Shown here in pieces: positions 15,750 through 64,000 of a stretch of DNA of 64,000 bases. The stretch spans positions 1 through 64,000 of the forward strand of contig JALOOU010000045.1 of NCBI GenBank assembly GCA_025454255.1, in the 5' to 3' direction. Below the pieces are notes generated by a model. That model did not search any database and was not told the DNA's origin. It saw nothing but the letters and a program-made list of their open reading frames with translations. The stretch comes from Desulfobacterales bacterium (GTDB lineage: Bacteria; Desulfobacterota; Desulfobacteria; Desulfobacterales; SpSt-501). Position 1 is the first letter of the stretch, and the number at the start of each line of letters is the position of its first letter. The position numbers were made by a program, and so were the translations under genes.

Positions 15750-16544
15750 CTAACGTCGCCACTGGTAAGGCAACTCGCGGATGGTGCCTGGCATGTCCAT
15801 CGTCTTTAGGGCCTCTAAACAATCTAAGACGATGCACCGTTGGCGTTCCACATTTCCAGGCTCGCCAAACATGCTGCCCCGCCCGAACTTGACCCGAAGC
15901 GCGCGTGGCGGCTTGATCTTAGCCATGCGCTCTGGTTCGTTCCCCATAGAGATGGTGTAAAAACCGGATTGCTCCGCAGCGCGCTGGATCAGACCGACGG
16001 TCTGATGGCATTTGGGTCAGACAGGGACCAAAAGGAGGATGTTGACCTCGGCCGCCTTCAGTTGCTGTAATAGTTGTGGGACAGATTCAGTAAGCAACGT
16101 CACAATGTCGTTCACGTAGCTGAAGCTGTAGTGCGTTTTCGCAATCTTGCCGATGATTTTCTCCCTTTCCAGCTCTATCAACCGCTGGAGAGGAAAAATT
16201 ACGTTGATGTCCTGCTCTACAAGGCTATGGTCGTAGTGGGCGTGGGCAATGCCGAAGTCTTCCTGTCGAGCGGTTTTGGGAATTTCCCGGAACGAGGGGT
16301 CGCCGTGAATGGAGGTGGTGTCGAAGGGTGGCTGACTTCTTTTGAGATACAGGCCGCCGCTGGTGATCAGGGCAATGGCCTGCTCCGACGGTTTTCCCCG
16401 GTAGACAGTCCAGGGCACTTCTTCACTAACGATCAGCGGATAGCGCTTGACGACTTCCAGCACGTTGCCGGCCTGGAATTCGGCCAAGCCCTCCTCAACC
16501 CATTTATCGTATGCGATTTTGAACGACTCGAGATTGATAAGCAT
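15750..16544 (-). CDS. Glycine/sarcosine/betaine/D-proline reductase selenoprotein B-like protein (GrdB/PrdB family), Sec at in-frame TGA 16019-16017
   Basis: ORFs 16017..16544 and 15750..15947 are in the same frame; readthrough gives ...AEVNILLLVPV-U-PKCHQTVGLIQRAAEQSGFYTISMGNEPERMAKIKPPRAL...; UxxC at the family's CxxC position; SECIS-like hairpin follows the UGA. Confidence 0.9.
15988..16006 (-). promoter_or_regulatory. Bacterial SECIS-like hairpin (ATCAGACC-GTC-GGTCTGAT)
   Basis: Perfect 8-bp stem, 3-nt loop starting with G, stem begins 10 nt and loop 18 nt after the UGA. Confidence 0.8.
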
Positions 16545-16704
16545 GAAATACCTGAAACGGTTGCCATGACGATTTCAGGCCACAAGACCTGCGCAGCAGT
16601 ATTTGATTGCTACATCATCGTCAGCGAGGAGGATTAAGCCACTGACAAAGAATTTGGAGCGCCGATAAAATTATAACTATCTTAAATCATTATAAATTTT
16701 AAAG

Positions 16705-56388: not shown

Positions 56389-57204
56389 ATGGCAAAGCGC
56401 GCTCTGTGCATCGGCATCAACGACTACCCCGGGACCGGCAGCGACCTCGCCGGGTGCGTGAACGACGCCAACGACTGGGCGGCGGCCCTCGCCAAGCGCG
56501 GGTTCAGCGTCGCAACGCTCTTCGACCGCAAGGCCACCGGGGCCGGCATCCGCACGGCGATCAGGACCCTCCTCGATGCCTCCAAGCGCGGGGACAGCCT
56601 GATCGTCCAGTACTCCGGCCACGGCTCCTTCGTGCCGGACGCGGACGGCGACGAGCCGGACGGCACCGACGAGTGCCTCTGCCCCTACGACATCGGCAGC
56701 CGCGGCCCGATCACCGACGACGAGCTCTTCGAGCTGTTCAACGCCAAGGCCGCGGGCGCCCGGCTGGTGATGATCTCCGACTCCTGCCATTCGGGCACCG
56801 TGTCGCGCTTTGCGCCGATCTCCACCCCGCCCACCATGCCCGGCCCGGCGGCGCCCCGGCGCATCGTGCGCTTCCTGCCGCCGGCGGTGTTCCTCTCCAG
56901 GCGCGAGGTGGGCAAAATGGGTCTCTCGCGCGCCCTGCACCGCTCGAGCCCCCCCGGCCGCTACGCCTCGCTCCTGATGTCCGGCTGTCAGGACACCGAA
57001 TACAGCTACGACGCCTGGTTCCAGGGCCGTGCCAACGGGGCCTTCACCTACGTCGCCCTGCGCGCGCTCGCGTCCCTGCCGGCCAAGGCGACCTACCGCG
57101 ACTGGTACAACGCGATCCGCAAGGCGCTGCCCTCGCAGCAGTACCCGCAGACGCCCAACCTGTACGGCTCCTCCAGCATGAAGCGCTGGAAGGCGCTGGG
57201 GTGA
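56389..57204 (+). CDS. Caspase-like (peptidase C14/metacaspase) protein
   Basis: ALCIGINDYPGTGSDLAGCVNDANDW; catalytic His YSGHGSF; catalytic Cys ISDSCHSGTVSRF. Confidence 0.93.
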   Translation: MAKRALCIGINDYPGTGSDLAGCVNDANDWAAALAKRGFSVATLFDRKATGAGIRTAIRTLLDASKRGDSLIVQYSGHGSFVPDADGDEPDGTDECLCPYDIGSRGPITDDELFELFNAKAAGARLVMISDSCHSGTVSRFAPISTPPTMPGPAAPRRIVRFLPPAVFLSRREVGKMGLSRALHRSSPPGRYASLLMSGCQDTEYSYDAWFQGRANGAFTYVALRALASLPAKATYRDWYNAIRKALPSQQYPQTPNLYGSSSMKRWKALG

Positions 57205-59458: not shown

Positions 59459-59590
59459 TATGCTTTCCAGGGAGGCTCTGGTCCTGCGGGAGGAGGCACG
59501 CGAGCTGGTGCGCCGGGGCTCCGTGCGGGATGATCCCGGAGATGGAGCAGGAGCGCATCCGCCGTCGCAAAGGACCCCGCGCGGGTTTTA
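59459..59590 (+). pseudogene. Acyl-CoA dehydrogenase N-terminal fragment, frameshifted
   Basis: LDVMLSREALVLREEARELVRRGSVR then +frame MIPEMEQERIRR: ACAD N-terminal pattern split across two frames. Confidence 0.55.
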
Positions 59591-60430
59591 GCAGAGGATG
59601 CGCTCCCTGCCGCAGGCGATGATGAGCTCGGACCGCCGGGCGGTGCAGGCGAGGGTCATGTTGAGCGCCCGGCCCATTTCGGCGGCGAGCGCGGTGGGCC
59701 GCGACATCCCGACCACGATGGGCAGCCGCGCGCGGGCGGCCTTCTGAACCATCTCGTAGCTGATGCGCGAGGAGAGGATCAGAAGCGCGGCCGCGGAGAG
59801 CTTCCGGCCGACGAAGGCCTTGCCGATGGCCTTGTCGAGCGCGTTGTGCCGCCCGACGTCCTCGGCGAAGGAGAGCGTCTCCAGGCGGCGGTCGATCAGC
59901 ATCGCCGCGTGCGCGCCCCGCGTGCGGCGGTGGATGACCTGGTTTTCGGCGAGCCGCTCGATGCATTTCAGGAGCTGGTCGATCGAAACCCGGAACGGGT
60001 CCGTGTTGGGGGCGACGACCTGGTAGATATCCTTGACCATCTCCTTGCCGCAGATCCCGCAGCTGGTCTGGCTGACGAAGCTCTTGCGCTCGAGCAGCTC
60101 GCCCACCTTTTCGCGCCGCTCGGGCTTCAGGCGCACCTCGATGATGTTCGGGTCCAGGTCCTTGCAGTAGCCGATGGAGGCAAAATCATCGGGGGAGTCC
60201 GCGATCCCCTCCCCCAGGCAGAACCCCGCCGCGTGGAACAGCTCCTCCCCGGGGGTGCGCATCACGACCGAGTAGGGCTTGCCGTCGATGCGGATGAGAA
60301 GCGGCTCCTCCCCGATGAACTCGCACGCATCGGGCCGGCATGCGCCGGCCTCGCAGCGGAAAATCGAGTTGGGGTGGGCAACCAAGCCGGCCATGTCCGC
60401 GGCGGGCCCGCTGCATGGGTCTTCGCTCAT
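59588..60430 (-). CDS. fdhD: Formate dehydrogenase accessory sulfurtransferase FdhD
   Basis: QTSCGICGKEMVKDIYQVV, RRTRGAHAAMLIDRRLETLSFAEDVGRHNALDKAIG. Confidence 0.95.
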   Translation of the reverse strand: MSEDPCSGPAADMAGLVAHPNSIFRCEAGACRPDACEFIGEEPLLIRIDGKPYSVVMRTPGEELFHAAGFCLGEGIADSPDDFASIGYCKDLDPNIIEVRLKPERREKVGELLERKSFVSQTSCGICGKEMVKDIYQVVAPNTDPFRVSIDQLLKCIERLAENQVIHRRTRGAHAAMLIDRRLETLSFAEDVGRHNALDKAIGKAFVGRKLSAAALLILSSRISYEMVQKAARARLPIVVGMSRPTALAAEMGRALNMTLACTARRSELIIACGRERILC

Positions 60431-61284
60431 GCGGCCGACGGGCTCTTTTCAGCCCCTTTGGTTTTGCGGGCGAGCGTGCGCCGCTCTTCGGGGATCGGCG
60501 GGGGCGCAGGCTGGCCTGAAATTTTGCACACCGCAGCGAAGCGCTCGGGGCAGGCCTCGAAGCAGGTGCCGCACTTGATGCACTTTTCCTGGTCGACGAC
60601 GTGGATGCGGTTTTTGCCCCCGTCGATGGCCTCGACCGGGCACTTGCGGGCGCAGATCATGCAGGCCTGGCATTTTTCGGGGTCGATGTAGTAAGTGACG
60701 ACCTCGCGCAACACCCGCTCGACCTCCTCCCGCGCGAAGAGCTCCCGGTACTCCTCCTCCCGGCTCAGCCGCGAGGCGAGCTTCTCGCGCTGGGTCAGCT
60801 TCAGGTAGGGGACGAGCTTCGCCACGCGCTTGAGCCTTGCGGCCAACTCCCCCCGTTCCAGCCCCTCGCCTTCCCCCAGCGGCCCCAGCGCCTTCATCTT
60901 CTTGCCGAAATCGTTGACCGCCTCGGTAAAGAGGATCCCGTCGGCGGCGGACATGAACTCGATCCGAAGCCGCTCCGGGTTCAGTTCGACGTGCTCCATG
61001 ATCCTGCGGCAAAGGAGCGCCATGTTCAGGGCGTGGAAATTCCCGTGCGTGACGTAGTTGCACTCGTTCAAGCGGCAGCCGCCGATGAACACCCCGTCCA
61101 TCCCGTTTTGGAAGGCGCGCAGCACAAAGGCGAGGTCCACCCTGCCCGCGCACATGACGCGGATCAGCCTCATATCGGTCGCATATTGCAGTCTGGAAAC
61201 TCCAGCCAGGTCAGCAGCGCCGTACGCTCACCAGTGGCATACGAAGCCCAGGAGCCTGGGCCTGAACGTGTGTCCTGCACGCAT
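60427..61284 (-). CDS. MvhD/FrhD-like hydrogenase iron-sulfur subunit fused to 2x[4Fe-4S], Sec at in-frame TGA 61230-61228
   Basis: From ATG 61284: MRAGHTFRPRLLGFVCHW-U-AYGAADLAGVSRLQYATDMRLIRVMCAGRVDLAF...; the track ORF starts only at the internal Met 61173. Confidence 0.9.
61193..61205 (-). promoter_or_regulatory. Candidate SECIS hairpin CTGGA-GTT-TCCAG
   Basis: Stem starts 22 nt and loop (first nt G) 27 nt after the UGA; only a 5-bp core stem. Confidence 0.5.
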
Positions 61285-61337
61285 GCGGGTTCACCCTCTT
61301 TTGTGGTGTTGCCGGTCGTCGCGACGGCCGTTTGAAA

Positions 61338-64000
61338 CTACGCCTCCACCGCCGCGTCGATCTGGCAGAGGAGCTCCTCGTCGGTGAAGTGCTTGAGCAC
61401 GATCGCCCCGGTCGGGCACTTGGCGTTGCACAGGCCGTCGCCCTTGCAGAGCACCGGGTTGACGGCGGCCTTTTTGCCCTGCCGCGTCTCGCGGAACTCG
61501 ATCGCCCCGTAGGTGCAGGCCGCGATGCACTCCCCGCAGGCCATGCACCTCTTCTCGTCCACTTCGCACACCGCGCCGGAGGCGACGACGGTGTCGTGGG
61601 AGAGCAGCGTCAGCACCCGACCCGCCGCCCCATAGGCCTGCTTGATCGTCTCCGGGATGTGCTTGGGGTAGTGCGCCAGCCCGCAGAGGTAGACCCCGTC
61701 GGCCGCGAACTCGACCGGGCGCAGCTTGACATGGGCCTCCTTGAAAAAGCCGTCCGGGCTGAGCGACACCTTGAACAAGCCGGCGATCTCTTTGGTTTGT
61801 TCGGAAGGGACGACCGCAGCGGCCAGCGCGAGCACATCGGCATCGATCACCAAGCCCCGCCCCAGGATGGGGTCGTTTGCCGTCACCCTCAGAACCGCCC
61901 TGCCGCCCTCCTTCAGGGGTTCCACCTGCGGCGGGTCCTGCGGCTCGTAGCGGATGAAACGCACCTCCTTGTCCGCAGCCTCCCGGTAGTGGTCCTCGCT
62001 GAACCCGTAGCTCATCATGTCCCGGTAGAGGATGTAGATCTCAACTGCAGGGTTGAGCTCTTTGAGCTTCAAGGCGTTCTTGATGGCGGCGCTGCAGCAG
62101 ATCCGGCTGCAGTAGTTCCTCTCCGCGTTGCGGCAGCCCACGCACTGGATCATGACGATCCGCTCGGCGTTGACGACCCGCCCCTCCGCCGCGGCGATGC
62201 GCTCCTCGAGCTCGAGCAGGGTCATGACCCGCTCGTCCTGCCCGTAGCCGTATTCACCGGGTTGGTAAAGCTCCGCGCCGATGGCGATGACGGCGGCGCC
62301 GTGTTTGATCTCGGCGGGCCCGCGCTCGGATCGGACCTTTGTGACGAAGTTGCCGACGTAGCCGGTCGCCTCCGTGATGGCGGCATGGGTGTAGACGTGG
62401 ACGAGAGGGTGCCGGTAGATCGTCTTGACGAGCTCGCGCACATAGGCCTGTACGTCCATCCCGTCCAGGGTGTAGTGCAGCCGGCGTGCGATCCCGCCCA
62501 GCTCCGCGTCCTTTTCCACCAGGTGCACCTCGTGGCCCTGCCGGGCGATGGAGAGCGCGCAGGTCATGCCGGCGACCCCGCCGCCGACCACGAGCGCCGC
62601 CTTGTCGACCGGCAGGTCGAACTCCTGCAGCGGCTCCAGGCGGCCGGCGCGCGCCACCGACATGCGCACGATGTCCTTGGCCTTGCGGGTGGCCTCCTCC
62701 TTCTCCTTGGAGTGGACCCAGGAGCAGTGCTCGCGGATGTTGGCCATGTCGAAGTAATATTGGTTGAGCCCCGCCTCGCGCAGGGTGTCGCGGAAGAGCG
62801 GCTCCAAGGTCCGGGGGCTGCAGGCGGCTACCACCACGCGGTTGAGCCCCTTCTCCTTGGCCAGATCCGTGATCTCCTTGGCGCAGTTGGAGGCGCATGA
62901 AAAGAGCTGCTCCTGGGCGTAGACGACGTTGGGCAGCCCGCGCACATAGTCGACCGTTGCGGGCACATCGACGATCCGCCCGATGTTGGCCCCGCAGTGG
63001 CACACGAAGACCCCGATCCGCGGCTCTTCGGCGGCGACCTCCGTTTCCGGCGGGTAGGTCCGCTCCCGGGTCAGCTTGCCGCGCCGGTAGTCCAAAAGCG
63101 CGCCGCAGTGGGCCCCGGCGCCGCTGGCGGCGAAAACCGACTCGGGGATGTCGATCGGCCCCTGGAAAGCGCCGCTGACGAAAACTCCGGGCCGGCTCGT
63201 CGCCATGGGGGCGAAGGGGTCGACCTTGCAGAAGCCGTGCGCGTTGGTCTCGATGCCGAAGGTTGCGGCCAGCCGCTTCGCATCGGCGGGAGGGGTCAGG
63301 CCGACGGAGAGCACCACGAGGTCGAACGCCTCCTCCTTGACGCCGTCGGCAGGGGTCGCATAGCGGATGACCACGTTGTTCGTCTCCGGCAGCTCCTTTA
63401 CGACCGAGACGTAGCTGCGGATGAAGCGCACCCCGGGCAGCTTTTCGGCCCGCTCGCAGAAGCGCTCGAAATCCTTGCCGTAGGAGCGGATGTCGTTGTG
63501 GAAGACGGTGCACTCGGCCGCCGCGTCGTGGTCCTTGGCCAGGATCACCTGCTTCTGGGTGTAGGTGCAGCAGACCGCCGAGCAGTAGCTGTTGTCGCCC
63601 GGGGTCACGCGCCGGGAGCCGACGCACTGGATCCAGGCGATCTTGTGCGGGTGCCTGCGGTCGGAGGGGCGCAGGATCTCGCCCTCGTACGGCCCGGTGG
63701 CGCACAGCAGCCGCTCGAAGTCCATGCTGGTGACCACGTTGGGCATCCGGCCGTAGCCGTAGTCGCCACGCAGCTTGGGATCGAAGGGCTCGAACCCGGG
63801 GGCCAGGATGACGGCGCCGACCTTGATCGCCATCTTCTCGGGCGCCTGGTGGAAGTCGATGGCGTTGTTTTTACAGACGCCTTCGCAGATGCGACATTTC
63901 TTCTCCTTGAGGTAGAGGCAGCTCTCGTCGATGTAGGCGACCAGCGGGATGGCCTGGGAGTAGTAGATGTGGACGGCCTTGTTCGGCGAAAGCTCCTGGT
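61338..64000 (-). CDS. HdrA-like flavoprotein/iron-sulfur subunit (long form), 5' end beyond window
   Basis: Reading frame stays open upstream of the M at 63833 to the window end; YCSAVCCTYTQKQ, VFVCHCGANIGRIVD, LVVGGGVAGMTCALSIARQGHEVHLVEK, C-terminal 2x[4Fe-4S]. Confidence 0.93.
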   Translation of the reverse strand, partial: QELSPNKAVHIYYSQAIPLVAYIDESCLYLKEKKCRICEGVCKNNAIDFHQAPEKMAIKVGAVILAPGFEPFDPKLRGDYGYGRMPNVVTSMDFERLLCATGPYEGEILRPSDRRHPHKIAWIQCVGSRRVTPGDNSYCSAVCCTYTQKQVILAKDHDAAAECTVFHNDIRSYGKDFERFCERAEKLPGVRFIRSYVSVVKELPETNNVVIRYATPADGVKEEAFDLVVLSVGLTPPADAKRLAATFGIETNAHGFCKVDPFAPMATSRPGVFVSGAFQGPIDIPESVFAASGAGAHCGALLDYRRGKLTRERTYPPETEVAAEEPRIGVFVCHCGANIGRIVDVPATVDYVRGLPNVVYAQEQLFSCASNCAKEITDLAKEKGLNRVVVAACSPRTLEPLFRDTLREAGLNQYYFDMANIREHCSWVHSKEKEEATRKAKDIVRMSVARAGRLEPLQEFDLPVDKAALVVGGGVAGMTCALSIARQGHEVHLVEKDAELGGIARRLHYTLDGMDVQAYVRELVKTIYRHPLVHVYTHAAITEATGYVGNFVTKVRSERGPAEIKHGAAVIAIGAELYQPGEYGYGQDERVMTLLELEERIAAAEGRVVNAERIVMIQCVGCRNAERNYCSRICCSAAIKNALKLKELNPAVEIYILYRDMMSYGFSEDHYREAADKEVRFIRYEPQDPPQVEPLKEGGRAVLRVTANDPILGRGLVIDADVLALAAAVVPSEQTKEIAGLFKVSLSPDGFFKEAHVKLRPVEFAADGVYLCGLAHYPKHIPETIKQAYGAAGRVLTLLSHDTVVASGAVCEVDEKRCMACGECIAACTYGAIEFRETRQGKKAAVNPVLCKGDGLCNAKCPTGAIVLKHFTDEELLCQIDAAVEA

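Follow-up and report, generated by a model that had tools for sequence, protein, structure and literature searches.

The window, meaning the whole stretch of 64,000 nucleotides that was analysed, carries on its minus strand a reading frame that runs from an ATG (61284-61282) through an in-frame TGA (61230-61228) to a stop TGA (60429-60427). The ORF finder began this gene at an internal Met (61173) and called a protein of 248 aa, while the read-through translation gives a product of 285 residues. With UGA read as selenocysteine (Sec), its N-terminus is MRAGHTFRPRLLGFVCHW-U-AYGAADLAGVSRLQY. The features of the locus are listed below.

60427..61284, minus strand: bamF, predicted selenoprotein of 285 aa, in which a helical linker joins a FlpD/MvhD domain to a 2[4Fe-4S] domain
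61282..61284, minus strand: start codon ATG of bamF, 18 codons 5' of the UGA, a spacing shared by 89 of 102 orthologs
61292..61298, minus strand: gagggtg, a Shine-Dalgarno-like motif overlapping the in-frame TGA (61293-61291) by which the bamF frame is limited upstream
61228..61230, minus strand: UGA, the predicted Sec19 codon of bamF, at the second position of CxWC/CxxU
61190..61207, minus strand: putative bacterial SECIS hairpin, with a core at 61193-61205 and two outer pairs extending to 61207/61190
60883..61251, minus strand: FlpD/MvhD domain of BamF, aa 12-134, from the PF02662 profile and the fold match to 5odh_D
60535..60693, minus strand: C-terminal 2[4Fe-4S] ferredoxin domain of BamF, about aa 198-250, homologous to the BamH C-terminus
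61338..64000, minus strand: bamE (HdrA-like), running past the window edge to about contig position 64446, with a UGA of its own (CSMU) at 64205-64203
59588..60430, minus strand: fdhD, sulfurtransferase, whose ATG overlaps the bamF stop (ATGA)

The start codon and the operon of bamF

The first-pass annotation had extended the frame through the TGA up to ATG 61284, had pointed to gagggtg ahead of this codon and had considered the listed ORF to be truncated at its N-terminus. The frame agrees letter for letter with the sequence and its translation, and the motif is present at 61298-61292, its gaggg part occupying 61298-61294. An in-frame TGA lies three codons 5' of the ATG. The ATG is found exactly 18 codons ahead of the UGA in 89 of the 102 orthologs, an in-frame stop no more than three codons 5' of the ATG in 46 of 102, like in the window gene, and a purine-rich Shine-Dalgarno-like motif, searched for with a loose pattern, in 83 of 102. 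None of the orthologs starts at the internal Met. The ORF beginning at Met 61173 is a truncated bamF.

The FlpD/MvhD domain of BamF matched PF02662 over profile positions 2-123 of 123 (E 3e-42, 143.9 bits against a cut-off of 22.3). The AlphaFold2 model of the protein (pLDDT 83) matched 5odh_D (E 9.4e-13, target TM-score 0.86), with weaker matches to ferredoxin-type proteins. Among the solved structures, MvhD subunits of heterodisulfide reductase complexes are the nearest. Over the FlpD domain, MvhD of HdrABC-MvhAGD (5odc_D) is 42% identical to BamF, with a target TM-score of 0.85, but it has Cys instead of Sec, lacks the ferredoxin domain and is partnered with a hydrogenase. The Cys and Sec positions of the cluster region are conserved in the BamF alignment, and the binding of a [2Fe-2S] cluster there is predicted.

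The gene order of the operon is bamBCDEF-fdhD: BamB, BamC, BamD and the HdrA-like BamE are encoded 5' of bamF on the same contig (L051), so that the FlpD-domain subunit stands beside bamE in one operon with bamB, bamC and bamD. BamB scored 1270 bits against 4z3w, the benzoyl-CoA reductase subunit of G. metallireducens, compared with 224 for the next protein, an ordinary aldehyde oxidoreductase, and it keeps the five active-site residues E251, H255, E257, H260 and C322 named in PMC12096430. The BamC and BamD homologs follow bamB in an order that is conserved in related genomes. Two proteins of the downstream pathway, BamA and BamQ, scored above the cut-off in this genome and in 0 of 14 controls, and the presence of fdhD within a bam cluster has a precedent (PMC13101534). 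On the strength of these neighbours, the BamB residues, BamA/BamQ and the fdhD precedent, we identify the gene as bamF. We are highly confident that it is the bamF gene of a benzoyl-CoA reductase of class II (tungsten, ATP-independent), starting at ATG 61284 and encoding 285 residues, with a UGA predicted to be read as Sec by means of the hairpin. The term MvhD-like used for this subunit in the first-pass annotation was right as to the FlpD/MvhD family (PF02662), but the protein is not a generic hydrogenase subunit. In the literature, the class II benzoyl-CoA reductases are called W/Se-containing.

The bamE gene also has an in-frame TGA in the context FPTNDCSM-U-ILSPK, located just outside the window at contig positions 64205-64203. 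This TGA was present in all 19 loci where the motif was found, and a strongly conserved stretch, CTGGTCGAGGTCGGCCGG, follows it 3' in these 19 loci and is likely its SECIS. The BamE of Desulfococcus multivorans has been reported as a UGA gene (PMC5109826). Elsewhere in the window (56389-57204, plus strand), there is an ORF with SGHGS and DSCHSG motifs that, on inspection, has the appearance of a caspase-like peptidase.

The UGA codon and the putative SECIS hairpin

In the CxWC motif of FlpD/MvhD proteins, it is the second Cys that aligns with the UGA of bamF (W-C in MvhD of 5odc), in agreement with the earlier claim that this codon replaces a conserved Cys near the iron-sulfur site. Two partly overlapping sets of loci were used for the examination of this codon. 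In the search of 150 related genomes with a pattern open to any residue, TGA stood at the Sec19 codon in 41/41 BamF-type loci, and the top-listed orthologs carried exactly one in-frame TGA. The scan of genome_contigs, in which each species was represented by one genome, yielded 80 loci, and TGA was found in all 77 that cover the codon. Left out of the counts were L042 and L147, which apparently come from the same genome and are masked (N) at this place, as well as L159 and L172, which are cut before the codon. No Cys version of the subunit was found in either set among the orthologs covering the codon; the six TGC cases of the related-genome set are more distant paralogs. The residues on both sides of the UGA are conserved in every ortholog. 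The records with the UGA are labelled Desulfobacterota/Deltaproteobacteria, Bacillota, Chloroflexi and others, some of them being MAGs. Among the cultured carriers are Desulfonema magnum (complete genome), Desulfocucumis palustris, Dethiosulfatarculus sandiegensis, Sporotomaculum syntrophicum, Paradesulfitobacterium ferrireducens and strain NaphS2. As the UGA is invariant in all sampled bamF orthologs and no Cys is found in its place, these results suggest that selenium is indispensable at the Sec19 site.

The genome encodes the machinery for Sec insertion, the absence of which the first-pass annotation had named as an argument against its reading. SelB (364.9 bits) and SelA (622 bits) each scored above the family cut-off. 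SelD (L073, contig C49; 376.2 bits) was also above the cut-off and has one in-frame TGA of its own, as is known for the Sec type of SelD, while tRNA-Sec scored 74 bits against a gathering score of 47.

The hairpin had been noticed earlier as a stem-loop with a G-first loop (61193-61205) at SECIS distance from the UGA. Its core, CUGGA-GUU-UCCAG at 61205-61193, is present, and the loop begins with a G that lies 27 nt 3' of the UGA. For the ranking of codon constraint, we used 105 distinct bamF genes and scored the 42 conserved-residue codons that have four or six synonyms by the frequency of the commonest codon. The five hairpin codons A27-R31 (GCT GGA GTT TCC AGA) took ranks 1-5 of the 42. The commonest codon was found in 105/105 genes for Ser30 (TCC), in 100/105 for Arg31 (AGA) and in 98/105 for both Val29 (GTT) and Gly28 (GGA); for Ala27, GCT was used in 99 genes and GCG in 2. 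The frequency for the next codon below these five was 0.75. Under random ranks, the probability that a given set of five codons fills the top five places is 1 in 850,668. It should be noted that the genes of this set were picked for having U at the site and, therefore, the analysis tests the hairpin and not the UGA. In the Cys paralog of the same genome (C57), the Gly-Val-Ser-Arg residues are encoded by GGC GTC AGC CGC, unlike the hairpin codons.

Four stem pairs are retained in 105/105 genes, and the loop G is present in all of them. The pairs C26-G38, G28-C36 and G29-C35 are invariant, and U27-A37 is changed to G27-C37 in two genes (L152 and L169), the only compensatory change. As the rest of the helix hardly varies, the argument from covariation of the whole helix is weak; such near-invariance fits pairing but falls short of proving it. 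The hairpin was no more stable than shuffled sequences (z = 0.80 for 50 nt and -0.39 for 27 nt), so that the SECIS argument rests on the codon constraint. The search of positions 60900-61340 against Rfam at E up to 5 gave no match and no SECIS family. Bacterial SECIS elements are probably poorly covered in Rfam.

Other ways of reading the UGA were weighed against these data. If it were a true stop and the functional protein started at Met 61173, the ORF would still be open for 248 aa, but such a product would be without the CxWC/U site and without the first strand of the domain, which is conserved among FlpD proteins. Since every ortholog keeps the segment flanking the UGA, and since there is conservation also of the ATG 18 codons ahead of it, this is very improbable. 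The genome is an incomplete draft in 194 contigs, which might favour a sequencing error, or a pseudogene in which TGC/TGT had mutated. However, independent assemblies from several phyla carry this UGA as well, among them the complete Desulfonema magnum genome and the records of Sporotomaculum syntrophicum and Desulfocucumis palustris, and this origin of the UGA, for which we see practically no chance, is refuted by the orthologs. A frame open through the UGA would also be expected if another amino acid were inserted by code reassignment or near-cognate read-through. We give this hardly any credence, since bamF itself terminates at UGA, the paralogs have Cys at the site and the Sec machinery is complete.

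The operon could, in turn, encode an HdrA/MvhD complex that is linked to a hydrogenase or to formate and has no relation to aromatic compounds, as FlpD and HdrA are common to many complexes of this kind and fdhD lies alongside. We regard this as improbable, because the operon opens with a clear BamB having all five active-site residues, the BamC and BamD homologs follow in conserved order, and BamA and BamQ are encoded in the genome. The sequence comparisons support the reading of bamF as a selenoprotein gene, in which UGA 61230-61228 would be decoded as Sec in vivo. The view that a selenoprotein is credible here has gained from the conservation of the UGA, the start and the hairpin and from the Sec machinery of the genome.

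Further UGA genes were also seen. A motif scan of the GC-rich window for additional UGA selenoproteins returned mostly chance matches and one real-looking case, on the minus strand at 15750-16580, with a TGA at 16019-16017 in the context LLLVPV-U-PKCHQTVGLIQRAAEQ. This gene has a weak, although above-cut-off, match to PF07355 (GRDB) and is perhaps the "first" selenoprotein implied when bamF was called the second. Two further FlpD paralogs with an in-frame TGA (L008 and L009, contigs C182 and C57) are encoded in the same genome. The TGA context is CNY-U in one and SG-U-HPGECHY in the other, hence two alternative Sec positions in the FlpD family.

BamF with a ferredoxin domain and the bamGHI genes

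The Bam system of G. metallireducens resembles the window in having the FlpD domain directly after the HdrA-like bamE and in having BamB as the catalytic subunit. Its BamF is annotated as 'hydrogenase, delta subunit; HTH mo' (PMC1924859), whereas BamF of the window ends in a 2[4Fe-4S] domain and lacks the wHTH-like C-terminal end of BamF from eight-subunit clusters; nor are bamGHI adjacent in the window. In seven clusters (L091-L097), a short BamF has the wHTH-like C-terminus and the 2[4Fe-4S] domain sits at the C-terminus of BamH; homologs of nuoE-like bamI and nuoF-like bamH lie nearby in 7/7 and bamG in 6/7. In the window locus and 13 further large loci (L078-L090), the 2[4Fe-4S] domain is on BamF, and no BamG, BamH or BamI genes were found near the fused bamF in any of these 14. 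The 80 smaller loci, with flanks of at most 4.5 kb and often shorter, gave one weak BamG-like match only.

The bamGHI genes are a feature of the eight-subunit BamBCDEFGHI complex, and none was matched in the L051 cluster; therefore, we assigned the operon to the bamBCDEF form. Outside this cluster, the best BamH homologs of the genome reach 53-54% identity over most of the protein, compared with 75-87% in the genomes with canonical clusters. As the genome is 87% complete, the absence of bamGHI elsewhere in it falls short of proof. One less usual feature of the locus is that its BamF ends in a 2[4Fe-4S] domain that is otherwise carried by BamH, in operons without adjacent bamGHI. There may be a widespread second form of the class II enzyme, in which BamF took over the 2[4Fe-4S] domain of BamH, BamGHI are absent and ferredoxin or another partner delivers electrons straight into Sec-BamF; we put this forward tentatively, at somewhat less than an even chance. 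A sulfate reducer with only 'BamB-F' has been described (PMC13416013), which suggests that such a gene set has been seen before.

Proposed role of Sec19 and implications

BamF is the electron-transfer subunit of the tungsten enzyme with which strict anaerobes break aromatic rings. According to the proposed mechanism, SelB, tRNA-Sec and the hairpin just 3' of UGA 61230-61228 would let the ribosome decode this codon as Sec. By homology with MvhD, the resulting CxxU site would lie within the [2Fe-2S] region of BamF, where it may take part in ligating the cluster. MvhD hands electrons to the FAD of HdrA through a [2Fe-2S] cluster (PMC6019823), and BamE is thought to bifurcate electrons, one of which reaches the tungsten site of BamB (PMC9304861). 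By analogy, Sec19 would be located in the cluster region that feeds BamE, and electrons would pass from the [2Fe-2S] region of BamF to the flavin of BamE, the HdrA-like subunit, and then to the tungsten site of BamB, this direction being the presumed one.

A survey of 2006 described FrhD selenoproteins in deltaproteobacteria, one of them in G. metallireducens and also in Syntrophus (PMC1794560), which bears out the remark of the first-pass annotation that selenoprotein FrhD/MvhD-type subunits are known in some members of this group. CxxU is listed for the FrhD/MvhD/VhuD selenoprotein family (PMC13188914). These proteins (PF02662) share with BamF of the window the domain and the Sec at the second position of CxxU, but they belong to [NiFe] hydrogenase operons, while BamF belongs to a benzoyl-CoA reductase operon and has an extra C-terminal ferredoxin domain. 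Sec at CxxU in FrhD/MvhD has been known since 2006. The result for bamF is correct and was to be expected from published work. Gene callers stop at UGA, and in anaerobic degraders of aromatic compounds the BamF proteins, as annotated, may therefore miss their first 37 residues together with the redox-active site. This is relevant to the benzoate degradation and the selenium demand that are predicted from genomes.
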